From a virus: DNA of 64,000 bases. The notes under the pieces are model-generated. The model was not told the DNA's origin, made no database searches, and saw only the letters and a program-made list of their open reading frames with translations. The stretch's first letter is position 1. Every line of letters begins with the position of its first letter. Shown here piece by piece: positions 21,622 through 35,490 of the stretch. Position numbers and translations under genes: made by a program. The stretch lies in the IMG/VR virus record IMGVR_UViG_3300030061_003724, positions 1 through 64,000 of that record. One strand, given 5' to 3'.

Positions 21622-21939
21622 TTACTTCTCCAAACTATCTTGAAATTTTTCTTCATCTTCTTTACTCATAAAAGCTGCCCATTTTCCTTTAGGGCATGAA
21701 GCTGATAATGATCTTATTTTTAATGATAAAATACAACCACAATCAGAACAACAAGGTTGAGAACCTGGTACTGCGCAATAATGACCTACATGATCAATAT
21801 ATTGACAACTATCACATATTCTCCATCTTTGAGCAGCTACTTCTTCAACATCTTGCTTAGTGAATACTTTATTTTTTATACCCTCTAAAATTTGAGGCAT
21901 ATTACCAAAAGCACCAATAAGTTTGTTAAATCGGCTCAT
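21622..21939 (-). CDS. Cysteine-rich zinc-binding protein, 105 aa
   Basis: An N-terminal helical half (FNKLIGAFGNMPQILEGIKN) is followed by WRICDSCQYIDHVGHYC and QPCCSDCGCILSLKIRSLSA with a final CPKGKW. About eight cysteines and two histidines could hold two zinc ions. Similar proteins are common in T4-like marine phages, often annotated as conserved hypothetical. No enzymatic site is seen. It shares one base with the next gene upstream. Confidence 0.6.
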   Translation of the reverse strand: MSRFNKLIGAFGNMPQILEGIKNKVFTKQDVEEVAAQRWRICDSCQYIDHVGHYCAVPGSQPCCSDCGCILSLKIRSLSASCPKGKWAAFMSKEDEEKFQDSLEK

Positions 21940-22562
21940 TACTCTGCGTCAAAAAAGAATATATGAAATAATCTCGATGAATTAATATCCCATCCAAAGT
22001 AATCAGTTGCTGAATGGATTAATTTAGCATCCCATATTACTAATCTGTTAAATACATTTCCTACAGTATCAACTAATTCATATGGTGTTCTATCTACAAA
22101 TGTTTTACCATTAAATGCTTCATGAATATTTTCTTCACCACCTCTTAATCCTGTTTCTTTATGTTTAAAGAAAGAAGTACCTGTTGCTACAGGAGCATCT
22201 GGAGTCATGTAAATACAAGCAGCCCAAGTTTGTTCATCACAATGATAAACTAAAGGTGTACCTGCTTTGTTTGATTGGAACCTACCATTCATTGTATGTC
22301 CTTCCCATTCAGTAATTTTCATACCTAAAATGGATTCAAATTTTTCTTTAGTACCATCAAAGAAGTATTGCTTTCTAGTTCTATAACCTAAATAACCTTC
22401 ATCATCATGATACCATTGATCTAATGCAAAATCTCTTACTGCATAGGGATCATCATAAAAATTTTCACACACAAATATTTTTTTATCTGGTGATGAAACT
22501 TTAAATTGATCTGAATTAATGTGTCCGTATTCTGAATTTGGATCTGAGTCGTATATGTTCAT
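21939..22562 (-). CDS. Fe(II)/2-oxoglutarate oxygenase-like protein (DUF6445-like)
   Basis: 207 aa. KKIFVCENFYDDPYAVRDFA is the usual start of this group. VYHCDEQTWAACIYMTPDAP provides H-x-D, and WDAKLIHSATDYFGWDINSS followed by RLFHIFFFD provides the distal His and the Arg. The predicted fold is a double-stranded beta-helix oxygenase. The substrate is unknown. It lies 9 nt after the sliding-clamp gene. Confidence 0.65.
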   Translation of the reverse strand: MNIYDSDPNSEYGHINSDQFKVSSPDKKIFVCENFYDDPYAVRDFALDQWYHDDEGYLGYRTRKQYFFDGTKEKFESILGMKITEWEGHTMNGRFQSNKAGTPLVYHCDEQTWAACIYMTPDAPVATGTSFFKHKETGLRGGEENIHEAFNGKTFVDRTPYELVDTVGNVFNRLVIWDAKLIHSATDYFGWDINSSRLFHIFFFDAE

Positions 22563-24182: not shown

Positions 24183-25115
24183 TTATATCTCAAAAGATGC
24201 TAATGCATCAATATGTGGATTTAAATCTAAACTCCACTCTAAATCATTAAAAAATCCTTCTAATTTATTTAATAAAATTGAATCAAATACTTTTTGTCTA
24301 TCAGCATAAGTATTTAAAAATTCTAATATTTTATTAGGCATATCATAATCAAAAAATGCTAATGCTTCTATTTTATAAGGATTATCTTTTAAATAAATCC
24401 ATTTAACTTTGTCTGCCATTGTTATTTGATTATGTTTTTTATCTAATTGCCACAATTTTAATAAATCATTATAACGAATAGCTGCCCTAACAGGTGCAGG
24501 AGCACCTTTAAGTATTTCAGTAAACATTTCTCCAGCTCTAGATCTACCTTGATATTTATCTAATTTTTTAACTGATGTAGGATTACCTAACTTAGCTAAT
24601 GGTATAGAACCATCTAATATTTGTTTTTTAAACACTTTAATTTGTTTTAAAACATTAACTTTAGTTTCACCCTTTAATACTTGTTCTAAAATACTGTTAA
24701 AGAAATCCCCTAATATAGGTGGAAAATTAGCTTTCATGAACTCTAAACCTTTAATATCTAAAGATTCTTTTTCAATACCTTCCTGTTTAGTAATCCACTG
24801 TGCATATCTTCTAGTAGCCCTAAAATAAGCAGCTCTGATTACACATTCAGTCTTCATTTCTAATCTATGCTCATTAACATTAAAAGCTTCACGAGCTAAT
24901 CTATCATAATCTTCTGTTATAATATCTTGGTATGCTAGAGCAACTTGTTCTAATTTATCATCTTTTTCTTTATCAGGAAATTCTTCAAAATTAGGATATA
25001 AATGCTTTAATATAGGTTCTGCATTAAAATAATTAGAATCTGTGTCAACATAAGCACAGTAATTCTCATCATCTTTATCACATATCCACCAAGGAGTATC
25101 TTCTATATGTTTCAT
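24183..25115 (-). CDS. B-family DNA polymerase, C-terminal fragment (gp43B)
   Basis: 310 aa. Begins MKHIEDTPWWICDKDDENYC and reaches polymerase motif C, AYVDTDSNYF with D24 and D26, within 30 residues. KTECVIRAAYFRATRRYAQW matches the conserved KKRYA-type block, and the rest is thumb. The end FNDLEWSLDL resembles the T4 gp43 C-terminus. It is the missing second half of the protein encoded at 25751..27448. Both halves must associate to make an active enzyme. Two unrelated genes lie between the halves. Confidence 0.9.
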   Translation of the reverse strand: MKHIEDTPWWICDKDDENYCAYVDTDSNYFNAEPILKHLYPNFEEFPDKEKDDKLEQVALAYQDIITEDYDRLAREAFNVNEHRLEMKTECVIRAAYFRATRRYAQWITKQEGIEKESLDIKGLEFMKANFPPILGDFFNSILEQVLKGETKVNVLKQIKVFKKQILDGSIPLAKLGNPTSVKKLDKYQGRSRAGEMFTEILKGAPAPVRAAIRYNDLLKLWQLDKKHNQITMADKVKWIYLKDNPYKIEALAFFDYDMPNKILEFLNTYADRQKVFDSILLNKLEGFFNDLEWSLDLNPHIDALASFEI

Positions 25116-25481: not shown

Positions 25482-25754
25482 TTAAAATGTTTTATCTCCT
25501 CCTGGTAATTTAGGTACTGTTACTGGTCTATTTCCTGTTGAATCAATATCATTTTTTGGTTCAACGATTATTCTATAAGGGGTATTATTAATTTTAAAAC
25601 TTCCTCCTTGTTTAAGCATTTTTCTAAAAAATCTCTCTTGTGATTCTGTCCACCCTTCACTAATTACAATCAATTCTTCTTTTGATAATTTTTCATTTGT
25701 TTTACCTATATAAACTTCTACGTTACCTCTTATTGATTGTTTTTTTAGTGTCAT
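25482..25754 (-). CDS. Hypothetical protein in split polymerase locus, 90 aa
   Basis: Starts MTLKKQSIRGNVEVYIGKTN, alpha/beta, with FFRKMLKQGGSFKINNTPYR followed by a flexible end TVPKLPGGDKTF. No endonuclease motif (GIY-YIG, HNH or LAGLIDADG) is visible, so it is not an obvious homing gene. It overlaps the polymerase N-terminal fragment by 4 nt. Function unknown. Confidence 0.6.
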   Translation of the reverse strand: MTLKKQSIRGNVEVYIGKTNEKLSKEELIVISEGWTESQERFFRKMLKQGGSFKINNTPYRIIVEPKNDIDSTGNRPVTVPKLPGGDKTF

Positions 25755-27448
25755 ATTTTTAATTTTAATTCGCCTCTAATTACTTTATTCATATGTCTAT
25801 TAGCACATAAAGCACTTTCTTGTATAATTCTTTGTCCTGATAGTGTAATAGCTTCTGATAAGATTACATTACCATATCTGAAACTACCTAATGCTGTTGC
25901 TCCATATAAACTATTAAGCAAAATTTTCATTGTATATTGCATTAAATAGTTATATTCACCTTTTTCTGTGTCTCCAGCTTTATAAGCTGATTTCATACGT
26001 CCCTTATAAATAACACGTTCTTCAAACCATTTTTTAAGAATTGTAGATAATACTGATTCTCTATCTGTCTCAAAAAATACCCCATTAGCTGATATTGCTA
26101 AGTTGTTTTCTTCAATCATTTGAATTAGTTTTTTTACAGGTACATATGCTTGTCTACGATGTTTATTTTCTACTAATAATTCTTCTTCAGGGTCACGTTC
26201 TTTTAAATCGTTAAGTGCCAATCTATTATTACGGTCATCTGCATCTATGATACGTCCCTTGAGTGTTTCTTTACCTATGTTTATACTCATTATAATTGAT
26301 GGATACAGCGATGTTAAATCTTCATCAAACATATACTTGTATAATCCTGCTTTAGGGCAAAATAAATAACCACCAGCATAATTCTTTTTATGAATTGGAT
26401 TTTCATCTCTTCTAGGTGGAATAATTCCTTGAGATAATAGATAAGCTGAAATGGCACCATCTTGTGATACCGTATTAGCATAAACTTCACTATAATTATG
26501 TTTTCCTTTATGAGATAAGTTTTTAGTTAAAGCAATATACTGTAACTTTTCATCTAATAATTTTAATATTTCAACATCACGGAAGTTATACTGAATAAAT
26601 TTCTGAATATCAGTTTCAAATAATTGATCTAGGTTTCCTTCATAATCAACTTTACCTACTTTAGCATATTTTTCTCCAATAGCATCTAATTTCCAGCTTG
26701 GTTCATCTTTCCAACTATACTTTTTATGTAAACGCATATAATCTAAAGATTCAACTCCAATAATTTCTACAAATTGATTACGCTTAAACCAATATTGATT
26801 ACCTTTTCTACAATTTACTTTACCAATTGGGGATAAATGTCTAGCAAAATCTTCACCTATTGTATTACACATTCTATAGTACAAATAAGGAATATCAAAG
26901 AAATCACTATTATAACCTATTAAAATATCTGGGTCTATGTCTCTAATAAACTCAATAAATTTACCTAGTAATTCATTTTCAGTTCTACAAGGTATAATTT
27001 CTTTATTTTTAGCTTTAGTATGTTTTAATTGATTCTTTTTATCAAGAATTAAAATATGCCAAGTATCAGGTGTTTTATCCCACCAAGCAATTGAAGTAAT
27101 AGGCATAGGAGCACTTTCAATATAATCTTCAGTTAATGCACCTCCTATTTCACACTCAATATCAAAAAATACTTCTCTATGACCAGTAGAAGGTGTATCA
27201 TCAGTACCATATCTTTCAATTAAATATTTTTGATATGGCTTCATATCATGGAAATGAATGTTTGAAGTATTTTTATCCCATTTATAAGTTTTAGTTAGTT
27301 TTTCACCATTAATGCCTTTAAGGTTACCATTTGAATCTTCAACATAAGCTGGGTTCCACCATTCTATTTCGTCATAGCCTGCTTCGTCCCAAAGATGTAT
27401 TTTGAATTTATTTTTACCTAAATTTGTTGCGTAGCATTTTTTATACAT
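25751..27448 (-). CDS. B-family DNA polymerase, N-terminal fragment (gp43A)
   Basis: 565 aa. Proofreading motifs are intact: Exo I FFDIECE (D96, E98), Exo II GYNSDFFDIPYL (N180, D185) and Exo III YNFRD (Y287, D291). Polymerase motif A DEDLTSLYPSII (D377) and motif B KILLNSLYG (K508, N512, Y515, G516) follow. The chain then stops shortly after GQRIIQESALCANR, before motif C, which is in the gene at 24183..25115. Together 875 residues, close to T4 gp43 (898). Aeromonas T4-like phages also have split gp43, but here two non-homing genes separate the pieces. Confidence 0.93.
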   Translation of the reverse strand: MYKKCYATNLGKNKFKIHLWDEAGYDEIEWWNPAYVEDSNGNLKGINGEKLTKTYKWDKNTSNIHFHDMKPYQKYLIERYGTDDTPSTGHREVFFDIECEIGGALTEDYIESAPMPITSIAWWDKTPDTWHILILDKKNQLKHTKAKNKEIIPCRTENELLGKFIEFIRDIDPDILIGYNSDFFDIPYLYYRMCNTIGEDFARHLSPIGKVNCRKGNQYWFKRNQFVEIIGVESLDYMRLHKKYSWKDEPSWKLDAIGEKYAKVGKVDYEGNLDQLFETDIQKFIQYNFRDVEILKLLDEKLQYIALTKNLSHKGKHNYSEVYANTVSQDGAISAYLLSQGIIPPRRDENPIHKKNYAGGYLFCPKAGLYKYMFDEDLTSLYPSIIMSINIGKETLKGRIIDADDRNNRLALNDLKERDPEEELLVENKHRRQAYVPVKKLIQMIEENNLAISANGVFFETDRESVLSTILKKWFEERVIYKGRMKSAYKAGDTEKGEYNYLMQYTMKILLNSLYGATALGSFRYGNVILSEAITLSGQRIIQESALCANRHMNKVIRGELKLKI

Positions 27449-27593
27449 GCAATTTTGATAATATGGTTTTTATTTCTTCTACTTTATATTTACATTCTTG
27501 TCCCTCACACAAGTCTTGACAACATCTATCTGTATTCAGGTAAATGAAATCTAATAATTCTTCTACTTTATCTAAATCTCCTTCTTCTAACAT
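27441..27593 (-). CDS. Small cysteine-containing protein, 50 aa
   Basis: ATG at 27593, TAA at 27443..27441. It begins MLEEGDLDKVEELLDFIYLN and contains RCCQDLCEGQEC, four closely spaced cysteines. It shares one base with the MazG-like gene's stop and overlaps the polymerase start by 8 nt, so it is likely real and coupled to polymerase translation. Possibly metal binding. Function unknown. Confidence 0.55.
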   Translation of the reverse strand: MLEEGDLDKVEELLDFIYLNTDRCCQDLCEGQECKYKVEEIKTILSKLHV

Positions 27594-28159
27594 TAAATCC
27601 CTAAATGTTGTTGTGGTCTAGTTTTTTGTATTTCATCTACTGTAAAGAATTGATGTAAATCAGGTCTAAAATAATTAATTGATTTCATTACTTTACGATC
27701 TCTGCTTCTATAGACAATCCATCTTCCTGGTGCAACTTCTTCATAATGGCAGGCCTCACCTTGTTCCTTACTTCTCTGGCTGACGGTCTGTATGGCTTCT
27801 TCTTCAGTTTTACAAGCTTTCGACATATTGCTTGCTTGTACCTCTTGATAAGCGGGCCATATCTTATCCTTAAGACCGTGTAACATAACACCGTTCCCAA
27901 GGGAAACATAAGTAATGTCGCACAAAGCGTCCAAAATTTCCACAATGTCGCCCCGTTCGCAAGCTTCTCTATACTCTTCAAGTTCTTCGAGGACAAAATC
28001 GTAGACGAATTGCCATTCCTTTTGATCTGGAATTGTAACTTCATAATTATTAGGTTTATTAAATGTTTCGTTAAATGTTTCCACTTCATTAACAAACGGA
28101 ACATTACCGTTTTCCTTCGAATTGTAGACGTCAAAGTCTAATTTTAGTTGTTTACTCAT
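27593..28159 (-). CDS. MazG-like nucleotide pyrophosphohydrolase
   Basis: 188 aa from the ATG at 28159 (MSKQLKLDFDVYNSKENGNV). FVLEELEEYREACERGDIVE followed by ILDALCDITYVSLG is the E-x2-E...E-x2-D metal-binding motif of the all-alpha NTP pyrophosphatase superfamily (MazG, HisE, dUTPase-like). The C-terminal part with APGRWIVYRSRDRKVMKSIN is extra. The family hydrolyses NTPs or dNTPs to NMP and PPi; in a phage it may adjust nucleotide pools or (p)ppGpp. It lies next to a phosphoribosyltransferase. Confidence 0.75.
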   Translation of the reverse strand: MSKQLKLDFDVYNSKENGNVPFVNEVETFNETFNKPNNYEVTIPDQKEWQFVYDFVLEELEEYREACERGDIVEILDALCDITYVSLGNGVMLHGLKDKIWPAYQEVQASNMSKACKTEEEAIQTVSQRSKEQGEACHYEEVAPGRWIVYRSRDRKVMKSINYFRPDLHQFFTVDEIQKTRPQQHLGI

Positions 28160-28545
28160 TTTAGATAATCTTGTATTGTTATTGAATCTTCTCTTTCCCA
28201 TGGATATACTATCCATTGATCACTTACTTCCTTAGCATAAAAATTATGTTGAAATTTAGAAGTAGGTTTATGATGTAAAGTAGCCCAGTATACACCTGGT
28301 GCTTTACTCAATGTCTCTCCTGTATCATTAATATCATCTACTACTAAAGTATTTTTACCTGGGTGTAATACAAAAGGTAAATCAATTTCATGTGAAATTA
28401 ATACTGCTGGGATTAAACCTCCTCTCGGTAATCCCATTACTGAATCTATATTTGGATAATCTGTTAGAATTTTTTTACATAATATGTTTACACATTCATG
28501 TATTTCAGACCATTCAAGGTATACTTTAGATATTGTGTCCGCCAT
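28156..28545 (-). CDS. Phosphoribosyltransferase (purine-type, Gpt-like)
   Basis: 129 aa. VMGLPRGGLIPAVLISHEI and the PRPP-binding motif TLVVDDINDTGETL (D-D-x-x-x-T-G-x-T/S) are diagnostic of type I phosphoribosyltransferases. The C-terminal KEVSDQWIVYPWEREDSI is typical of xanthine-guanine phosphoribosyltransferase-like proteins. It would join a purine base, or a base analogue, to PRPP. Its position in front of folE and the que genes hints at a 7-deazapurine or guanine salvage role; that is inference. Confidence 0.82.
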   Translation of the reverse strand: MADTISKVYLEWSEIHECVNILCKKILTDYPNIDSVMGLPRGGLIPAVLISHEIDLPFVLHPGKNTLVVDDINDTGETLSKAPGVYWATLHHKPTSKFQHNFYAKEVSDQWIVYPWEREDSITIQDYLK

Positions 28546-29218
28546 TATTTATTTTTAAACTATCAAAGAATTCTTTTCTAGCTAGGTTATCATTTTCTCT
28601 AAATACTCCTGTTGCTTTAGTTGTAACCATAGCAGCACCTTGATGTTTAACACCTCTACAACTTACACAATTATGTGTTCCTACTACTGTAACAATTACA
28701 CCTTTATTATTTTCACAAATTTTATTTACAGCATTATGGATTGCTGATGTTAGTTGTTCTTGAATTGCTCCTCTTCTTCCAAACAATTCTACTATTCTAT
28801 TTAACTTAGATAATCCAATTACTCTACCATTATCTCCAACAACATATCCAATATGAACTACACCTCCAATTGTTTGATGGTGATGTGAACACATTGAAGT
28901 TAACGGTATATTTCGTTCTATAACAATGCCATCATAACCATCTGATGGGAATGATGTGATTGGAGACATCTGTGTGTATCTACCAGCCCACAAATCATTT
29001 ACATATGCTTTAGCTACTCTCATAGGAGTATCAGCTGAGTTGGGATCATTCTGCCAATCACATTTTAATGCCTCTAAAAATCGGGCATATGCTTTAGCAG
29101 CTTTGTTTATCATTTTTTGTTTTTCTTTATCGTTTAGAGGAAATCCAGGTGCAACTCCATTTGCGAATCCTTCTTGTACTACCTCTAAGTCGTTGTGATT
29201 TTTTCTACGATTGCTCAT
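28526..29218 (-). CDS. folE: GTP cyclohydrolase I
   Basis: 230 aa. Zinc and catalytic residues are visible: SMCSHHHQTIGG (C110, H112, H113) and VGTHNCVSCRG (C184, C187), plus IGLSKLNRIVELFGRR. It converts GTP to dihydroneopterin triphosphate, the first step toward 7-deazaguanine and folate. With QueD, QueE and QueC nearby, the former use is likely. It overlaps the phosphoribosyltransferase gene by 20 nt. Confidence 0.93.
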   Translation of the reverse strand: MSNRRKNHNDLEVVQEGFANGVAPGFPLNDKEKQKMINKAAKAYARFLEALKCDWQNDPNSADTPMRVAKAYVNDLWAGRYTQMSPITSFPSDGYDGIVIERNIPLTSMCSHHHQTIGGVVHIGYVVGDNGRVIGLSKLNRIVELFGRRGAIQEQLTSAIHNAVNKICENNKGVIVTVVGTHNCVSCRGVKHQGAAMVTTKATGVFRENDNLARKEFFDSLKINNGGHNI

Positions 29219-29342
29219 TTATATAACTTTCTAATTTATCTATTAATACTAGTACTTCATCTGGTTCCATTGTAATGGCACAACAAACGTGTACATTTTC
29301 CTTTATGTCTTCTAATATACGAAGGGCTTCTTGCTTATCCAC
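29205..29342 (-). CDS. Small helical protein with GTG start, 45 aa
   Basis: GTG at 29342..29340 shares its G with the TAG stop of queE; TAG stop at 29207..29205 overlaps folE by 14 nt. The product VDKQEALRILEDIKENVHVC continues into an acidic helix ending LIDKLESYINEQS. It exactly fills the gap between queE and folE, so it is likely a real coupled gene. Two cysteines (C20, C21). Function unknown. Confidence 0.5.
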   Translation of the reverse strand: MDKQEALRILEDIKENVHVCCAITMEPDEVLVLIDKLESYINEQS

Positions 29343-30127
29343 TATACTTCTCGTTTATCTTCAAAAGCAATAATATGTGGTCTCCAAGTCATTCTATAAC
29401 CATTATCTCTAACCCAATCAAATAATACTGGGTAGGACTTAAATAGTGCTTCTCTAGAATCACCTGCAGGCATAAACCATACTTTTTCAGGTTTAACTTC
29501 TAACTGAGCTATACAATCCATAATTTCAGCTAGTGCTCCTTTATCCTTACCATCCCAAACTGGTTTGATATGAAAATCCGAATGGTACGCTATTGATTGT
29601 TTTATAGCTGCATAATTAAGTCTTAATTTATTATGTTGTTTTACCATTTTTTCGTCTGTAACTTTTCCTTGAGGAGTAAGAGTACCAACAACGGGGACGC
29701 TATTACTAAACTTAGGAGAAATTGACAGAAGATTAATAGGATAATCAGTAGGAAGGAAATGTGATCCTTCAGTTTCCATAGTAATGAATATATTGTTTTC
29801 ATGTGCAAAGTGGGTTAACTCGTTAACCAAAGCAGCATGCATTGAAGGAGAACCTCCAGTCAACATCATTTCCTTTATATGAGGATTTTTCTCATACATG
29901 GCAATGATATCTTTAAAATTAAAGTGACCTTTTTCTGGATGGATACTAGTGTACCAAGAATCACACCATCCACCTTCACCGAAATAACATCTGTGGGTGC
30001 ATCCTGTTGTTCTAATTACTACTGTTGGGTATCCTGCTCTTGATCCTTCTGATTGTACTGCAGTGTAGATTTCTACAATTGGGAGGTTTTTATCGTAATC
30101 CTCAATACGTTTCAGTTGCTTGTGCAT
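29342..30127 (-). CDS. queE: 7-carboxy-7-deazaguanine synthase, QueE-like
   Basis: 261 aa radical SAM enzyme. PIVEIYTAVQSEGSRAGYPT is the QueE opening (E-x-F-x-S-x-Q-G-E-G in QueE), followed by TTGCTHRCYFGEGGWCDSWY with C43, C47 and C55. This is CX3CX7C rather than CX3CX2C. MMLTGGSPSMH and the C-terminal WFMPAGDSREA agree. It turns carboxy-tetrahydropterin from QueD into CDG, the precursor of preQ0. It forms part of the que cluster. Confidence 0.88.
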   Translation of the reverse strand: MHKQLKRIEDYDKNLPIVEIYTAVQSEGSRAGYPTVVIRTTGCTHRCYFGEGGWCDSWYTSIHPEKGHFNFKDIIAMYEKNPHIKEMMLTGGSPSMHAALVNELTHFAHENNIFITMETEGSHFLPTDYPINLLSISPKFSNSVPVVGTLTPQGKVTDEKMVKQHNKLRLNYAAIKQSIAYHSDFHIKPVWDGKDKGALAEIMDCIAQLEVKPEKVWFMPAGDSREALFKSYPVLFDWVRDNGYRMTWRPHIIAFEDKREV

Positions 30128-30170
30128 ATTGTTAATTTTTTATAGTGGTTTTTCATTCACTGTTGTAACT

Positions 30171-30635
30171 TTATTCGCTGTAATAAGCAGCATTTTTTCC
30201 ATGTTCTGCAAACTTAACTTTGACAACTCTTACTCTATTGTCTGTTTCAGTTTTAACAAAATCATTTAATTTGTGATAAATATATTCAGCAAATTTCTCT
30301 GCGCCAGTAGCTGGGATAACCCTTACTTGAGCTACTCCTGCTGTATCCATTTGTTTAAATGCTTCTAATTCTGGGTCATCTTCTGCCACAACTAAAGTGT
30401 GGTCAAACATATAATCCATCCATGCTTTAGGAGACATACCATCAATTTGAGTTTTAGCTCTTTTCATTCCACCAAAATCCCAAACCCAATTTCTATGATC
30501 TAAATCTCCTTCAAAGTATACTTTAAAAGAAACTCCATAACCATGAACAAATCTACAGTGTGTTGTTGTTGCTTTCCATTGACGAAACACTGTACTAAAA
30601 CCGTCAAATACTTTACTTGATTGAAACTTACCCAT
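30171..30635 (-). CDS. queD: 6-carboxy-tetrahydropterin synthase, QueD-like
   Basis: 154 aa. STVFRQWKATTTHCRFVHGY contains the cysteine and histidines of the PTPS/QueD site in the phage-type arrangement, and VWDFGGMKRAK, FDHTLVVAEDDPE and ATGAEKFAEYIYHKL follow the family order (D-F...DH...E-x2). It makes carboxy-tetrahydropterin from dihydroneopterin triphosphate. The gap to queE is 43 nt. It overlaps the thioredoxin gene by 8 nt. Confidence 0.87.
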   Translation of the reverse strand: MGKFQSSKVFDGFSTVFRQWKATTTHCRFVHGYGVSFKVYFEGDLDHRNWVWDFGGMKRAKTQIDGMSPKAWMDYMFDHTLVVAEDDPELEAFKQMDTAGVAQVRVIPATGAEKFAEYIYHKLNDFVKTETDNRVRVVKVKFAEHGKNAAYYSE

Positions 30636-30876
30636 TATACCAATTTAATATGTCTTCCCTTGACCTGTTACCTACTACTCTAGCTAATTCATTATTGTTT
30701 TGATCTACTTTAATTAAAGTTGGGACTGATCTAACTGAGTAATGACTTGCTTTTTCCATATCCTCATCAATATTTACTTTATGAATTGGAATATCTAAAC
30801 TTAATTTGTCCATTACTGGTCCTAATGCTCTACAAGGACCACACCATGGAGCTGTAAAATAAATTATTTTATTCAT
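30628..30876 (-). CDS. Thioredoxin
   Basis: 82 aa, shorter than bacterial thioredoxin (about 105), starting MNKIIYFTAPWCGPCRALGP with the WCGPC active site at 11-15 and cis-Pro in SVRSVPTLIKV. It is a cytoplasmic dithiol reductant, presumably for the phage ribonucleotide reductase or for reductive steps in phage enzymes. T4 encodes a glutaredoxin-type thioredoxin (NrdC) for this purpose. Confidence 0.9.
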   Translation of the reverse strand: MNKIIYFTAPWCGPCRALGPVMDKLSLDIPIHKVNIDEDMEKASHYSVRSVPTLIKVDQNNNELARVVGNRSREDILNWYNG

Positions 30877-30894
30877 ATTTAATTTTTATTATAA

Positions 30895-31140
30895 TTATAC
30901 TAATTCTTCTACTATACCTATAACCTCAGATAATATAAGAACTCCTACTGCTAACTCCAAGCTATATAACAAAAGTCCATAACCTGCTAATCTAACTCCT
31001 GATTTAACGAAACTAACTATTTGGTGTTTCTTTTGATCAGGCATGTGTTCTAAATTTTTTCTATCTTTAATTATCCCATCCATATCTTTTATTTCTATCA
31101 TTTCTTTTTTTGTCATTGGTGCTCTATATATCATATCCAT
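30895..31140 (-). CDS. Small membrane protein, 81 aa
   Basis: Starts MDMIYRAPMTKKEMIEIKDM. A basic-acidic N-terminal half is followed by one long hydrophobic stretch (about 52-79, LAGYGLLLYSLELAVGVLIL). Predicted single-span or hairpin membrane protein with cytoplasmic N-terminus. No family recognised. It precedes by overlap (10 nt) the CorA-like gene. Confidence 0.6.
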   Translation of the reverse strand: MDMIYRAPMTKKEMIEIKDMDGIIKDRKNLEHMPDQKKHQIVSFVKSGVRLAGYGLLLYSLELAVGVLILSEVIGIVEELV

Positions 31141-31514
31141 TTATTTTTTTTAAAGTAAGTCCACATCCCTACTACTGTACCTACAGTTAAAACTGCAAAT
31201 ATCCAAAATCCATGATCGTCTGATATTAAAGGAACATCATCAAAATTCATTCCCCAAAGTCCAGTATAAAAAGATAATGGTAAAAATATTGTAGACCATA
31301 TTGTTAATAAATTTAACCTACGATTCATAAGATCATTATGTCTTTTTTCAATCATAGATTCTAACACTTCAAATATTTCTATTAAATCTAAGTGTTCGCC
31401 TTTTAATAATTCTCTTTTTAAATTATAAAAATCGTTTGTGTCGTAGCTTTTATTTTCAAATATTACAATTTCGTAATATTGTAAAGCTTTTTTTAATTGT
31501 TCTTTTCTTGCCAT
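31131..31514 (-). CDS. CorA-like magnesium-transporter membrane domain
   Basis: 127 aa from the ATG at 31514 (MARKEQLKKALQYYEIVIFE). The C-terminal part is the CorA pore region: a long helix (LESMIEKRHNDLMNRRLNLL), TM1 with FLPLSFYTGLWGMNF containing the GMN signature, and TM2. The large N-terminal cytoplasmic domain of CorA (about 200 residues) is absent, so this is a minimal pore domain. It might form a channel or interfere with host CorA; neither is proven. Confidence 0.75.
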   Translation of the reverse strand: MARKEQLKKALQYYEIVIFENKSYDTNDFYNLKRELLKGEHLDLIEIFEVLESMIEKRHNDLMNRRLNLLTIWSTIFLPLSFYTGLWGMNFDDVPLISDDHGFWIFAVLTVGTVVGMWTYFKKNKWI

Positions 31515-31696
31515 AAGTCTAATGTCCAAAGTAATGATTCAATAAAATATAAAACTCCAACTAACATCATTCCATAATGTGTCCATTCACCACTATGACC
31601 ATAAGTAAAGTCTTGGTAAATAGAAGGAATAGCAGAGCCCATAATTGAAACACTAAATAATAGTTTTACATATTTATTTTCTAAAAATTTTCTCAT
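31493..31696 (-). CDS. Small two-span membrane protein, 67 aa
   Basis: Starts at the ATG at 31696 (MRKFLENKYVKLLFSVSIMG) in an ATGA overlap with the oxygenase stop. Two hydrophobic segments (about 9-24 and 43-60) flank a YQDFTYGHSGEW loop. An ATG at 31705 would add MLQ. Small holin-like topology, but no evidence of lysis function. It overlaps the CorA-like gene. Confidence 0.6.
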   Translation of the reverse strand: MRKFLENKYVKLLFSVSIMGSAIPSIYQDFTYGHSGEWTHYGMMLVGVLYFIESLLWTLDLWQEKNN

Positions 31697-32370
31697 TTGC
31701 AGCATTCTTTTGTTGATCTAATTTCTGGTACTGGATTTAATATTTTAACATTATAATTAATTACTAACCTATAATCGTTAACTGTAGGAGGACATCCTGC
31801 ATGTAAATAATCTTGTTTAAACATTATAATAGTACCTTTTTTAGGAGTAATTGATTTTCTAATTTCTAATTCTTTTCCTAAAGTCAGATAATTAATACCT
31901 TTATTTTTAAATATAATTGTATCACCATCCGAGTCATCAATATAATAAAGAAGAGTCCAACCTCCAAGCCCTTCAAAATCACAGTGCGGAATAAAACAAG
32001 TATCTTTATTCTCAGGAAGATCTTTATAATTGAAATTTGATTTAATTTTCATTAATTCATATTCCATATTAAAGTTTTTAGCTAAACTATTTAAAGGTGA
32101 AAGTATTAAGTCACTCCATACTTCTTTTTTATAATTCCAAACTCCTTCTTCATAGAAAACACTTTGAAATATACCAGGTCTTAATTGTACTTTTTTTCCT
32201 GGTATCTTAATAGAATCAATATCAATAGGATTTTTAATCATATTAGCTTGTGGTTTTCTTGTAGCCGCAAACTCATACTTTACTTTTCCTAAATGATCAT
32301 TTAAGATATTTTCCTGTATCTCTGGAGATACTATATTGGGAAATACATAAACTAAATCGTTTAAAACCAT
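31693..32370 (-). CDS. Fe(II)/2-oxoglutarate oxygenase-like protein
   Basis: 225 aa. The metal triad is visible: CFIPHCDFEGLGGWTLLYYI (H-x-D), KGTIIMFKQDYLHAGCPP (distal His) and DYRLVINYNV (Arg on the last strand). The GDTIIFKNKG segment is typical for prolyl-4-hydroxylase-like double-stranded beta-helix proteins. The C-terminus ends STKECCK. Substrate unknown. Next to the tRNA genes. Confidence 0.75.
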   Translation of the reverse strand: MVLNDLVYVFPNIVSPEIQENILNDHLGKVKYEFAATRKPQANMIKNPIDIDSIKIPGKKVQLRPGIFQSVFYEEGVWNYKKEVWSDLILSPLNSLAKNFNMEYELMKIKSNFNYKDLPENKDTCFIPHCDFEGLGGWTLLYYIDDSDGDTIIFKNKGINYLTLGKELEIRKSITPKKGTIIMFKQDYLHAGCPPTVNDYRLVINYNVKILNPVPEIRSTKECCK

Positions 32371-32386
32371 ACTCTATTTTAATTTG

Positions 32387-32528
32387 TTGCCCAGGCAGGA
32401 CTCGAACCTGCGACCTCTTTGACCTCTTTGCTTTTCACGATCGATTGTATTACAAGTTTCCCTTCACGTTAAAGTTCAACTTCGCGCCGAGTTAAGCCAA
32501 AGCGAGCTACCTACTGCTCTACTGGGTA
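32387..32528 (-). tRNA. tRNA-like gene with about 60-nt insertion in the anticodon loop
   Basis: 142 nt on the minus strand. It has acceptor strands TACCCAG and CTGGGCA (one A-C mismatch), a D arm GAGC-AGTAGGTA-GCTC, an anticodon stem CTTTG/CAAAG and a perfect T arm GCAGG-TTCGAGT-CCTGC. The anticodon loop is 67 nt instead of 7. The variable region holds a 9-nt tandem repeat AAAGAGGTC. No CCA is encoded. No group I intron core can fit in 60 nt, so the insert is unexplained. It may be a pseudogene or an RNA with another role. The anticodon is not assigned. Confidence 0.55.
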
Positions 32529-32536
32529 TATTTTTG

Positions 32537-32609
32537 TTGTCCCGCCAGGTTTCGAACCTGGACTCTTCTGAACCAAAATCAGACGTGTTACCAGTTACAC
32601 CACAGGACA
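32537..32609 (-). tRNA. tRNA-Gln (anticodon TTG)
   Basis: 73 nt on the minus strand. Acceptor TGTCCTG/CGGGACA, D arm, anticodon stem TCTGA/TCAGA with loop TT-TTG-GT, T arm CCAGG-TTCGAAA-CCTGG, discriminator A, no encoded CCA. All arms pair. It reads CAA and CAG (by wobble) codons. Confidence 0.93.
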
Positions 32610-32614
32610 TTTAG

Positions 32615-32688
32615 TGGAGGATATCGGAGTCGAACCGATGACCTCTTGAATGCAAATCAAGTGCTCTAGCCAGCTGAGCTAATCCCCC
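32615..32688 (-). tRNA. tRNA-Ala (anticodon TGC)
   Basis: 74 nt on the minus strand. Acceptor GGGGGAT/ATCCTCC with one G-U, D arm GCTC-AGCTGGCTA-GAGC, anticodon stem CTTGA/TCAAG with loop TT-TGC-AT, T arm ATCGG-TTCGACT-CCGAT, discriminator A, no encoded CCA. GGGGGATTAGCTCAGC is the usual tRNA-Ala start. It lies 6 nt from queC. Confidence 0.94.
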
Positions 32689-32694
32689 TACCTT

Positions 32695-33489
32695 TTAAGC
32701 TGCGTATTCAGCAAGCAATTTCTCTACGTGAGATTTTGCTACTTCGTAATCAACTTCTCCAGTTTCATCCTCATACTGTACAGGATCTTTTCTCCCCAGA
32801 GCAATAAAAGCCTCAATCCTCTCAACACTAGAAGCAGACTTATAATCACTATTTCCTGAAGGATATGGTTTATAAGAAGTATTTGTTCTCTTATAAACTT
32901 CATCAAATTCAATACCCAACGTATCAACCAAACTCTCTCCATCCTTTAAAATTCCTAATTTATCTGTGTCAATATAAGGTATAAAAAATCCTACTTTATC
33001 AGCATCCCAATTACCAATTTTGAAAGCTTCATAATCAGCATCTCTAAATTCTTGTCTACAATCAGGATAGATAGCATGATCACCAGCATGGATACCTAAA
33101 GCAATATCACATTCATCTCCTGTTTTTTTAGATACAGATAATGCTACTGCTTGAGTTAATGAAGAGAAAATTTTATTTCTATTAGGTACAACTGTTGCTA
33201 CCATATTTTCTTCTTCATAATGACCTTCTGGTACATCTTCTCCACCTTCTACAAGGTTAGAATCTAGTAGGTTTACTAAACCATCTAATTTAATTACTTG
33301 ATAAGTAACATTCTGACCATTAGCATTTAAATAATCTACTAATGATTGTGCTCTTTCAAGTTCCACTCTATGCTTCTGACCGTAATCAAAAGATAAAGCT
33401 GTTACATTGTCATACTCAGATAAACATCTAAGTAGTAAAGTTGAGGAGTCCATCCCTCCAGATAAGGACACTACGACATTTTTTGCCAT
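32695..33489 (-). CDS. queC: QueC-like PP-loop enzyme lacking the zinc cysteines
   Basis: 264 aa. The PP-loop SGGMDSS (10-16), LSFDYGQKH and the VVPNRNKIF and GDHAIYPDCRQEF motifs identify 7-cyano-7-deazaguanine synthase. QueC normally ends with SCY...CGxCxxCxER, four zinc cysteines. Here that part reads TSYKPYPSGNSDYKSASSVER (about residues 204-224, shown in pieces), so all four positions are Ser, Asp or other non-Cys residues. The activity (CDG to preQ0 via the amide) may be changed or metal independent. It overlaps the next gene by 19 nt. Confidence 0.85.
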   Translation of the reverse strand: MAKNVVVSLSGGMDSSTLLLRCLSEYDNVTALSFDYGQKHRVELERAQSLVDYLNANGQNVTYQVIKLDGLVNLLDSNLVEGGEDVPEGHYEEENMVATVVPNRNKIFSSLTQAVALSVSKKTGDECDIALGIHAGDHAIYPDCRQEFRDADYEAFKIGNWDADKVGFFIPYIDTDKLGILKDGESLVDTLGIEFDEVYKRTNTSYKPYPSGNSDYKSASSVERIEAFIALGRKDPVQYEDETGEVDYEVAKSHVEKLLAEYAA

Positions 33490-33695
33490 GATTTAAAATA
33501 ATTAATTAAATTTTGCCAGGTATTATTAAGCGTATAGGCAAACGCTGACTTTAAATGTTTGAATTTACATTTAAGATAAGATATAGTATAATGATAAATA
33601 GCTACTAATCCAAACCCTCCTGTAAGAAGAGTCCAAATGTTTGGATGCCAGTGCTCTCCACAAAATCCTAATGCATGTTTTATTATTTCTGCCAT
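33471..33695 (-). CDS. Small membrane protein, 74 aa
   Basis: Starts MAEIIKHALGFCGEHWHPNI and has one hydrophobic segment (about 20-38, NIWTLLTGGFGLVAIYHY) followed by a basic amphipathic tail. The GFCGEHWHPN motif is similar to that of small membrane proteins common in T4-like phages of unknown role. It overlaps queC and lies 1 nt from the gene upstream. Confidence 0.6.
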   Translation of the reverse strand: MAEIIKHALGFCGEHWHPNIWTLLTGGFGLVAIYHYTISYLKCKFKHLKSAFAYTLNNTWQNLINYFKSWQKMS

Positions 33696-33696
33696 A

Positions 33697-33894
33697 TTAT
33701 TCGTTTTCTTTAAATTCTACGTCACCGTAATCATCAATCGGTTTATCTCTTACCAGGTCCCAATCTGCATCATCTATAATTTCTTGTTGAAGGTCTTCAT
33801 CACCTGTTTTCCACTTTGCTAATTCTTCTTCTGTTAAGATATATTCTTCCCATCTGAAGTTGCAATAATTTACTGTTCTTGTTAATTTAGCCAT
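33697..33894 (-). CDS. Hypothetical acidic protein, 65 aa
   Basis: Starts MAKLTRTVNYCNFRWEEYIL. Strongly acidic after residue 20, helical, ending VEFKENE. Such RWEEY...DW-rich small proteins occur widely in T4-like marine phages. Function unknown. Overlaps the DpdA-like gene by 8 nt. Confidence 0.6.
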   Translation of the reverse strand: MAKLTRTVNYCNFRWEEYILTEEELAKWKTGDEDLQQEIIDDADWDLVRDKPIDDYGDVEFKENE

Positions 33895-34699
33895 AATGTT
33901 CTATTTTTGGTATTCCGTTAATTTCTCTAAATAATGTTGTATTATGTATTATTAATTGGTAATCAATATCTGTGAATTTCATATCAAAATGATCATTCAT
34001 ATTTGCTTTAGGTTTTTCAGTTAAGCCTCTTTCAGTATACATTGTTCCTTCTAAAGCAGCCATTACTGGATTTGATGTATCAATTGAGTCAATAAATTTA
34101 AACCCTTTATACCATCCAAATTCCTGAGGTACAGCACATCCTAATAAATGAATTTTATCATAATCACCTAATCCTTCTTCTACAACTAGATCACTGATAA
34201 ACTTTAATCTACCTAATGCTTTACCTAAATCTTTATTAGCATGAGGGAAATGATCATTATACCAAGTAGCACCATAAGATATAGCTATTTTTTCATAACC
34301 TAATTCTTTTAATGCTCTATAACTTTTCCAAGCATCAACATAATCTTTTCCTTGTACTACAGCTACTCTAGTACAATCTTCAGGCATTCTAATTCCTTTC
34401 CAATACTTAGCATATACTTGAGTTTGAGTATAATCCATCCATTCATCTGGAACTATAAATTCATTAGGACATAATTCATGTAACCAGTACATTAATCTTT
34501 TCCAATCATATGCTTCTCCTAATTCATGGAGCGAGTTATCCATAACAATATATCTTCCTGCTTTTTTAGCGTCAAAAAAATATTGTTTGTATTCTTCATC
34601 CTGATCTAATAAATGAGGTAGACAATAGTCATAGTCATTGAATTCAGGGGATGCTGTTAGTAAACAGCGAGGTACTTCGTGACTTACTTTCATAACCAT
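33887..34699 (-). CDS. dpdA: DpdA-like DNA 7-deazaguanine transglycosylase (TGT superfamily)
   Basis: 270 aa. The series RYIVMDNSLHELGEAY, NEFIVPDEWMD, VAVVQGKD, KIAISYGATW, KIHLLGCAVP and FIDSIDTSNPV follows the TIM-barrel strands of tRNA-guanine transglycosylase relatives, with an Asp on the last strand as likely nucleophile. TGT's C-terminal zinc site is absent, as in phage DpdA proteins, which insert preQ0-type bases into DNA. The start may be at 34693 (MKVSHEV). The queC, queD, queE and folE genes nearby support the call. Confidence 0.7.
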   Translation of the reverse strand: MVMKVSHEVPRCLLTASPEFNDYDYCLPHLLDQDEEYKQYFFDAKKAGRYIVMDNSLHELGEAYDWKRLMYWLHELCPNEFIVPDEWMDYTQTQVYAKYWKGIRMPEDCTRVAVVQGKDYVDAWKSYRALKELGYEKIAISYGATWYNDHFPHANKDLGKALGRLKFISDLVVEEGLGDYDKIHLLGCAVPQEFGWYKGFKFIDSIDTSNPVMAALEGTMYTERGLTEKPKANMNDHFDMKFTDIDYQLIIHNTTLFREINGIPKIEHYG

Positions 34700-34734: not shown

Positions 34735-34872
34735 TTAAATAGTTCTGAATCTTCTTCTACCGTTCCAAGTCATTCTTTTTCCTTGGCCCATGTATTTTTT
34801 AAGATCAGTTCTATCGTTAAACTCATTTCTTATTGCGTTTAACTGTGTGTTACCGTTATCTTGTTTTACCAT
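34735..34872 (-). CDS. Small basic hypothetical protein, 45 aa
   Basis: ATG at 34872, TAA at 34737..34735. Starts MVKQDNGNTQLNAIRNEFND and ends in a basic MTWNGRRRFRTI. Its ATG overlaps the stop of the gene upstream by 7 nt. It fills the 166-nt gap before dpdA. Role unknown; possible nucleic-acid binding. Confidence 0.55.
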   Translation of the reverse strand: MVKQDNGNTQLNAIRNEFNDRTDLKKYMGQGKRMTWNGRRRFRTI

Positions 34873-35366
34873 TGTTTTGCCGGTCGCCCTCTGCGACTTT
34901 TTATATAAATTTTGTTATACTTCTCTTCGATTTGGTAATATAAATCCAATATCGTACCCATACATATATCGATCTCCTGATATATTTCATCTTTCGTTAT
35001 ACGAAAGTTTTTAGTGAATGCTATTATAAGATCATTTAATTTTCCATTCTCATCTTTTTCATGGTCTTCCCATAACCTTTTTCTCCTTGCACTTAGTAAT
35101 TTAGATTTTTCTAAATACTTTTGCAAATCTGGTTTGCATTCTTCATAAATATCATTCAACATATGTTCGCACAATTGTGCTTGTAAAGAATAAGGACCTT
35201 GATCATAATCCCCATTCATAATCTTATCCCTAAAATCAGATTTATTTGGTAATGGTTTGTTTTTTGCTTCATACCATCTCCACCATCTAAACTGATTATA
35301 ATTCAATTTCTGAAATTCAGTTAAACGCTTCTCAATAAATTTTCTACTATGAGGTACTTTAAACAT
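34866..35366 (-). CDS. Hypothetical helical protein, 166 aa
   Basis: I use the ATG at 35366 (MFKVPHSRKFIEKRLTEFQK); a GTG at 35375 is also possible. The protein is mostly helical and basic, with FRWWRWYEAKNK, YEECKPDLQKYLEKS and a basic C-terminus SRRGRPAKQW that resembles an AT-hook (GRP). Family not recognised. The GRP tail suggests DNA contact. Overlaps the next small gene's start by 7 nt. Confidence 0.55.
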   Translation of the reverse strand: MFKVPHSRKFIEKRLTEFQKLNYNQFRWWRWYEAKNKPLPNKSDFRDKIMNGDYDQGPYSLQAQLCEHMLNDIYEECKPDLQKYLEKSKLLSARRKRLWEDHEKDENGKLNDLIIAFTKNFRITKDEIYQEIDICMGTILDLYYQIEEKYNKIYIKSRRGRPAKQW

Positions 35367-35367
35367 A

Positions 35368-35490
35368 TTATCCACAAGGGCAAAAAACCCATAAACTAAA
35401 ATATAACATATAAAATACTAAAGCGATAAACAGAAATCCAGTAATTGCATCGATTTCTTGTTTGAATTTGTTTCTAAACTTTTTAAACAT
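35368..35490 (-). CDS. Small membrane protein, 40 aa
   Basis: ATG at 35490, TAA at 35370..35368. Starts MFKKFRNKFKQEIDAITGFL and continues into a single hydrophobic span (FIALVFYMLYFSLWVF) ending CPCG. A basic amphipathic N-terminus plus one span is a plausible short phage membrane peptide. Its end overlaps or abuts the next gene. Function unknown. Confidence 0.55.
   Translation of the reverse strand: MFKKFRNKFKQEIDAITGFLFIALVFYMLYFSLWVFCPCG

Follow-up and report, generated by a model that had tools for sequence, protein, structure and literature searches.

Complete replacement of guanine by a 7-deazaguanine base has been reported for two Campylobacter phages. In CP220 and CPt10, 100% of the deoxyguanosine is replaced by 2'-deoxy-7-amido-7-deazaguanosine (dADG), and the related finding for phage NCTC 12673 is deoxyinosine (Crippen et al., as quoted in PMC8306585). 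PMC8306585 calls it unknown whether dADG enters the DNA before or after replication. In PMC6884629, the dADG Campylobacter phages are placed in a group without the DNA transglycosylase DpdA, and a route via modified dGTP is mentioned as proposed for them. Here, we describe a cluster of 7-deazaguanine genes in the viral record IMGVR_UViG_3300030061_003724. The cluster encodes a small DpdA-like protein of the tRNA-guanine transglycosylase (TGT) superfamily, and we found that CP220 and CPt10 have a protein of this type, whereas NCTC 12673 has none. The window referred to below is positions 1-64000 of the 81,318-base linear record; the rest of the record was also read.

The phage is marine and of Bacteroidota type. 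Among T4-like phages, it belongs with Flavobacterium phage immuto and its group; its large terminase is 60% identical to that of immuto over its full length. Nearly all of its genes are encoded on the minus strand. A scan of viral contigs gave 173 relatives, from which 80 loci were kept. The gene set is kept in approximately 80 related viral contigs, and this conservation is therefore far beyond chance. The cluster adds a member to the 7-deazaguanine DNA-modification systems already known from phages. A sequence-only reading of the window had pointed to folE, queE, queD, queC and a TGT-superfamily gene, and all five are intact on the minus strand at the positions it gave.

A small DpdA-like transglycosylase

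Family libraries do not read the product of the TGT-like gene as a TGT. The only Pfam match was DUF6610, with an E value of 0.003, and PHROG 19058, to which it belongs, has no known function. An AlphaFold2 model, built on an alignment of 36 homologues, had a pLDDT of 93.9 and a pTM of 0.90. With this model, Foldseek listed TGTs first and DpdA (7ui4) at rank 14, and VIA-align gave DpdA 7ui4 a Z of 17.2 (rmsd 3.2, 233 aligned), with TGTs scoring equally well at approximately 17. We are confident of the predicted DpdA/TGT fold, which by itself gives no substrate. The sequence-only reading had called the gene dpdA-like and of the TGT superfamily; the predicted fold bears this out, and the family libraries could not have done so. 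A TGT-superfamily DNA transglycosylase is one of the features that mark a phage 7-deazaguanine DNA-modification system (Hutinet 2019), and the fold match provides a candidate for it.

When the protein is aligned with DpdA1 proteins, D54 corresponds to the Asp of DSG, D85 to the Asp of LD, H184 to the His of HG and D207 to the Asp of SxDSS. All four residues are invariant in the alignment of the small-DpdA family. We take the positions of D54, D85 and D207 to be those of the general acid/base, the recognition residue and the nucleophile of TGTs, and predict that D54 and D207 are catalytic and that D85 serves base recognition.

The protein is 36-38% identical to the proteins of phages immuto and CP220. 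Against the DpdA of phage 9g, which is a DpdA1, hhalign gave a probability of 0.5% (E 0.12); the catalytic residues nonetheless align. The small-DpdA profile had no match in the record of 9g, nor in that of nt-1, which carries the DpdA2 type (464 aa vs 270). Judged by sequence, the small DpdA is a family apart from both DpdA1 and DpdA2. Presumably it is the DpdA3 subfamily of Cui et al. 2023, as immuto and CP220 carry it. Known bearers are immuto phages, Campylobacter Firehammerviruses, and the Bacillus phages BSP7/BSTP and Youna2. Further bearers are Cellulophaga phages phiST, phi13:1 and phi19:2, Chryseobacterium phage MA9V-3, Brevundimonas phages StAshley and MaInes, and CC_R7. When the Youna2 protein was used to scan viral contigs, no relatives came up.

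DNA as the probable target of the pathway

That this 7-deazaguanine pathway has DNA as its target, as the sequence-only reading favoured, is in our view very probable because of the fold, the catalytic Asp, the conserved operon, the lack of a canonical tgt and the homology to CP220/CPt10. No match to canonical tgt (PF01702) was found in the 81,318-base record, a linear fragment beyond whose ends a tgt could lie. PF01702 matched 0 of 31 phage records, and the same search was positive in 14 of 14 control genomes. The only tRNA genes of the record, one for Gln(TTG) and one for Ala(TGC), lie next to queC at 32536-32688, within the cluster. Neither has a GUN anticodon, and an Rfam search of 24-38 kb gave nothing beyond these two. 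The earlier statement that no tgt or queuosine tRNA genes are seen thus agrees with the searches of this fragment. The queF gene is absent from the record as well; among the phage records searched, QueF was clear in immuto and Dp-1 only, the other matches falling at FolE.

QueC, QueE and the final base

The QueC signature, defined in PMC13329287 as SGGxDS, YxQxHxxE, VPxRN and YPDC, was found with all four motifs in 68 of 73 clade members. The zinc motif C(x)8CxxCxxC is lost throughout the clade and in immuto: the segment is without cysteine in 71 of 79 aligned QueC proteins, including those of the window and of immuto. QueC function requires zinc (PMC13329287), and the QueC of the window clade therefore either works without zinc or differs in chemistry. 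We considered predicting the base from the loss of the zinc site and made no such prediction. CP220, whose QueC retains the zinc cysteines, makes dADG, and two DpdA1 phages are without the site too.

The final base need not be preQ0; we propose 7-amido-7-deazaguanine (ADG) or preQ0. Of the 'preQ0-type bases' in the sequence-only reading, the 7-deazaguanine is upheld, whereas preQ0 itself is not required, given the absence of queF, the QueC without a zinc site and the dADG of CP220. The cysteine spacing of QueE is Cx3Cx7C in immuto and in 55 of 58 clade members, compared with Cx3Cx2C in other phages.

Kinase and MazG genes near the small DpdA

Genes resembling those of deoxynucleoside monophosphate (dNMP) kinases are found beside the small-DpdA gene in four lineages. 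In CP220, a phrog_2107 kinase gene lies directly downstream of it. In immuto, it is preceded by a MazG gene and followed approximately 0.7 kb downstream by a phrog_2107 kinase gene, and an immuto-like contig, L121, has the same plan, with the kinase gene within approximately 1.3 kb. In Youna2 and BSP7, a gene for a phrog_761-type kinase is directly upstream and overlaps the small-DpdA gene by 4 bases, and in phiST and MA9V-3 the directly upstream gene encodes an AAA_18 kinase. StAshley has a DNMK gene 6 kb downstream, together with a phosphoribosyltransferase (PRT) gene. The pattern was seen again in CC_R7, examined after the hypothesis had been formed, where queC, small DpdA, a thymidylate-kinase-like gene and DNA polymerase follow in a row.

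Whole-record searches, marginal matches aside, found kinases of these neighbourhood families in all seven named small-DpdA phages tested and in none of nine DpdA1 phages. A Fisher test gives p 9e-5; given the relatedness of the records and a choice of families made on the small-DpdA side, we take this as a strong hint only. A P-loop scan near dpdA in the DpdA1 loci gave no candidate small kinase. In 8 of the 9 DpdA1 phages, a sliding clamp is encoded beside or near dpdA.

The MazG protein of the window is 72% identical to the immuto MazG that adjoins the TGT-like gene. This type of MazG is limited to the immuto/window group, and phiST has another MazG. A tested precedent for a MazG-type enzyme that supplies dGMP from dGTP is MazZ (PMC8342488).

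Phosphoribosyltransferase and probable guanine salvage

A PRT of the XGPRT type is encoded in 36 loci and an HGPRT in 8 (TIGR01203, E 7e-36 to 6e-44), never both. Either type adjoins folE or lies between it and queE. Among loci that have queE as well as folE, seven are without a PRT of either type; several of these loci end nearby. The reaction common to XGPRT and HGPRT is guanine + phosphoribosyl pyrophosphate to GMP.

FolE carries a PRT domain of this type at its N terminus, as a fusion, in the DpdA1 phages VpKK5 and Stenotrophomonas ply2008005c, and similar FolE-linked PRT matches occur in Pseudomonas, Vibrio, Xanthomonas and Sphingomonas phages. The phages matched by the PRT are mostly 7-deazaguanine phages, with the PA5oct-like group as the main exception. 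The N-terminal domain on the FolE of several DpdA1 phages is not named in the record annotation (L105:5026-5928; L106:5111-6004).

Because XGPRT and HGPRT swap in one slot and PRT-FolE fusions exist, we consider it likely that the PRT recycles the guanine freed by base exchange to GMP. This prediction fits either substrate level of the exchange, and at either level such a salvage role would explain the recurrent PRT neighbour.

Exchange on free nucleotides or in DNA

We suggest the following pathway. Gene content, fold, catalytic motifs and conserved context are what the analysis shows; the reactions, their order, the level of the substrate and the identity of the final base are all inferred. 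In brief, FolE, QueD, QueE and QueC would convert GTP to the 7-deazaguanine base (ADG or preQ0). MazG would cleave dGTP to dGMP, thereby clearing normal dGTP and supplying substrate for the exchange. The small DpdA-like enzyme would swap guanine for the 7-deazaguanine base via a covalent Asp207 intermediate, acting mainly on free deoxynucleotides and making d(7-deaza)GMP, which the dNMP kinase and the nucleoside diphosphate kinase of the host would raise to the triphosphate for the polymerase. The freed guanine would be returned by the PRT to GMP and on to GTP, the substrate of FolE. The outcome would be (near-)complete replacement of G before replication, with protection from host nucleases as its purpose.

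Two other readings of the gene set have to be weighed, and we give each only a very slight chance. The que genes might serve to raise the queuosine content of tRNA, on which the TGT-like protein would then act: FolE, QueD, QueE and QueC are common to queuosine synthesis, and two tRNA genes lie inside the cluster. These are, however, tRNA-Gln and tRNA-Ala without GUN anticodons, canonical tgt and queF are lacking, and the CP220 homologue accompanies fully modified DNA. Alternatively, the PRT could turn the 7-deazaguanine base into a ribonucleotide, from which a kinase and ribonucleotide reductase would make the dNTP, with the TGT-like protein in a secondary part. PRT, kinase and ribonucleotide reductase genes are indeed present, and in phiST the PRT and dNMP-kinase genes form an overlapping pair. 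This proposal sits poorly with a slot that takes XGPRT or HGPRT, whose shared substrate is guanine, and with Youna2 and BSP7, which are without PRT. A TGT-like gene in every locus also speaks against it, albeit weakly, as the loci were found by that gene.

The closest contest concerns the level at which guanine is exchanged. We regard exchange mainly on free nucleotides, with complete replacement, as the best explanation, at about even chances, because kinase genes recur beside the small DpdA but not in DpdA1 phages. A MazG that cleaves dGTP, its predicted substrate, would hinder a route needing G in DNA first and help one starting from dGMP. In the same pathway, the small DpdA could instead act after replication and exchange guanine in the completed DNA, which is the accepted view for DpdA1, with kinase and MazG serving general nucleotide metabolism only and the PRT recycling the freed guanine. 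This is a serious contender, although we put it at somewhat under even. The predicted fold is that of TGT/DpdA, all characterised relatives act on nucleic acids, the DpdA proteins of 9g and CAjan act on DNA (PMC6884629), small-DpdA genes often adjoin DNA polymerase, and the window clade is without an adjacent kinase. Left unexplained are three kinase families that recur beside small DpdA and not in DpdA1 phages, and a dGTP-destroying MazG would oppose a route that needs incorporation of dGTP first. The extent of replacement differs as well: DpdA1 phages replace G in part only, up to 27% in 9g (PMC6884629), and CP220 reaches 100% (as quoted in PMC8306585).

Several points weigh against exchange on free nucleotides. 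We know of no TGT enzyme that acts on free nucleotides, and for the DpdA3 subfamily Cui et al. in 2023 reportedly described complete replacement and inferred post-replicative insertion. The kinase gene of the record is 45 kb from the cluster, a kinase was found in 5 of 13 partial records of the window clade, and two small-DpdA loci on contigs of metagenome-assembled genomes (L122 and L123) have no kinase nearby. The contrast with DpdA1 phages is biased, as the neighbourhoods of small-DpdA genes supplied the kinase families that were searched for, and it compares approximately 6 with approximately 4 lineages. Protein charge, considered as a sign of DNA binding, was set aside as uninformative: DpdA1 proteins are equally acidic, and charge does not discriminate.

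That the small DpdA is the first TGT-superfamily enzyme to work off polymers, in a closed loop of MazG, exchange, kinase and PRT, is a tentative proposal that we hold at just short of an even chance. If exchange takes place at the nucleotide level, the enzyme would have an activity not seen before, and DNA in which no ordinary G is left could be made with it. The gene context makes the question of entry before or after replication testable. We did not meet the recycling PRT or the nucleotide-level exchange in the literature examined, and they may be known elsewhere.

Organization of the gene cluster

In the order of transcription, the cluster begins with the TGT-like gene (34699-33887), two small open reading frames (ORFs), queC, tRNA-Ala and tRNA-Gln, a 2-oxoglutarate (2OG)-Fe(II) oxygenase and three small ORFs. 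It continues with a thioredoxin-like gene, queD, queE, a 45-aa ORF, folE, PRT, MazG and a split family-B DNA polymerase. The clade keeps the order TGT-like, queC, thioredoxin, queD, queE, folE, PRT, MazG, polymerase. A PRT and a MazG-like gene had been placed at the cluster end in the sequence-only reading; both are there, the MazG gene lying just outside the start given for the cluster. The features are listed in Table 1.

Table 1. Coordinates and supporting evidence for genes of the 7-deazaguanine cluster and the distant kinase gene
Feature	Position	Strand	Evidence
TGT-superfamily transglycosylase, DpdA-like, 270 aa	33887..34699	-	AF2 (AlphaFold2) model, motifs in 85/85 homologues
queC, 7-carboxy-7-deazaguanine (CDG) to ADG/preQ0 synthase	32695..33489	-	PF06508 E 5.6e-37
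thioredoxin-like protein, CGPC, overlaps queD start	30628..30876	-	conserved neighbour, cluster in 70 loci
queD, 6-carboxytetrahydropterin synthase, HCxxxHGY type	30171..30635	-	phrog_2389 E 1.9e-40; motif 62/62
queE, radical SAM CDG synthase	29342..30127	-	phrog_2076 E 1.6e-51, TIGR03365 E 2.4e-15
folE, GTP cyclohydrolase I	28526..29218	-	PF01227 E 2.2e-42; Zn motifs in 45/47
guanine/xanthine-type phosphoribosyltransferase (PRT)	28156..28545	-	xanthine-PRT model NF006613 E 7.6e-16, PF00156 E 5e-8
MazG/PRA-PH-like nucleotide pyrophosphohydrolase	27593..28216	-	PF01503 E 2.2e-9, phrog_671 E 8e-31; EExxE + ExxD motifs in 39/42
dNMP kinase, ~45 kb from cluster	79468-79998		phrog_2107 E 2e-27

The polymerase is split into 25751-27448 (exonuclease and start of the palm) and 24183-25115 (DTDS motif), and two small ORFs separate the parts. 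The N part is approximately 569 aa in most related loci; in two it is 909 aa and the gene is probably unsplit. In the immuto-like contig L121, the que cluster is interrupted by several homing-endonuclease-like ORFs, judged by eye.

Upstream of the TGT-like gene, 34866-35375 encodes a basic 169-aa protein with no family assigned, found in 72 related loci. We considered it as a DNA-binding partner; its AlphaFold2 model is confident, helical and without a PDB match, and the protein is absent in immuto and so not part of the core. The 2OG-Fe(II) oxygenase inside the cluster is encoded at 31693-32370, and its PHROG 274 label 'endonuclease V' is probably wrong. A PhyH-type dioxygenase (2160-2831) and a DUF6445 protein (21939-22562) are encoded elsewhere in the window. 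Tailoring of the base by these three proteins is possible.

Comparison with known systems

The Z-cluster of cyanophage S-2L (PurZ, MazZ, DatZ) works like the pathway proposed here in its MazG-type conversion of dGTP to dGMP for a pre-replication route via a modified nucleotide (PMC8342488). It differs in that adenine, not guanine, is replaced and in having no homologous base-forming enzyme.

The DpdA1 systems of 9g, CAjan and VpKK5 share folE, queD, queE, queC and a TGT-superfamily enzyme for DNA. Their DpdA1 proteins are 300-317 aa in most and give no significant profile alignment with the small DpdA; the genes are mostly beside a sliding clamp, and no dNMP kinase was found in these phages.

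The Firehammerviruses CP220 and CPt10 have the small DpdA (36% identical), the PRT and the phrog_2107 kinase in common with the window phage. Their QueC has the zinc cysteines, an HD-domain protein is encoded upstream instead of MazG, and the genes are dispersed.

Another close system is the cluster of Flavobacterium phage vB_FspM_immuto. Peculiar to immuto are QueF and a formyltransferase encoded beside the DpdA gene, a family-A polymerase, and a kinase gene next to that of DpdA. Shared with the window are the terminase (60%), queD, queE, folE, PRT, MazG (72%), the small DpdA (36%), the zinc-less QueC and the phrog_2107 kinase.

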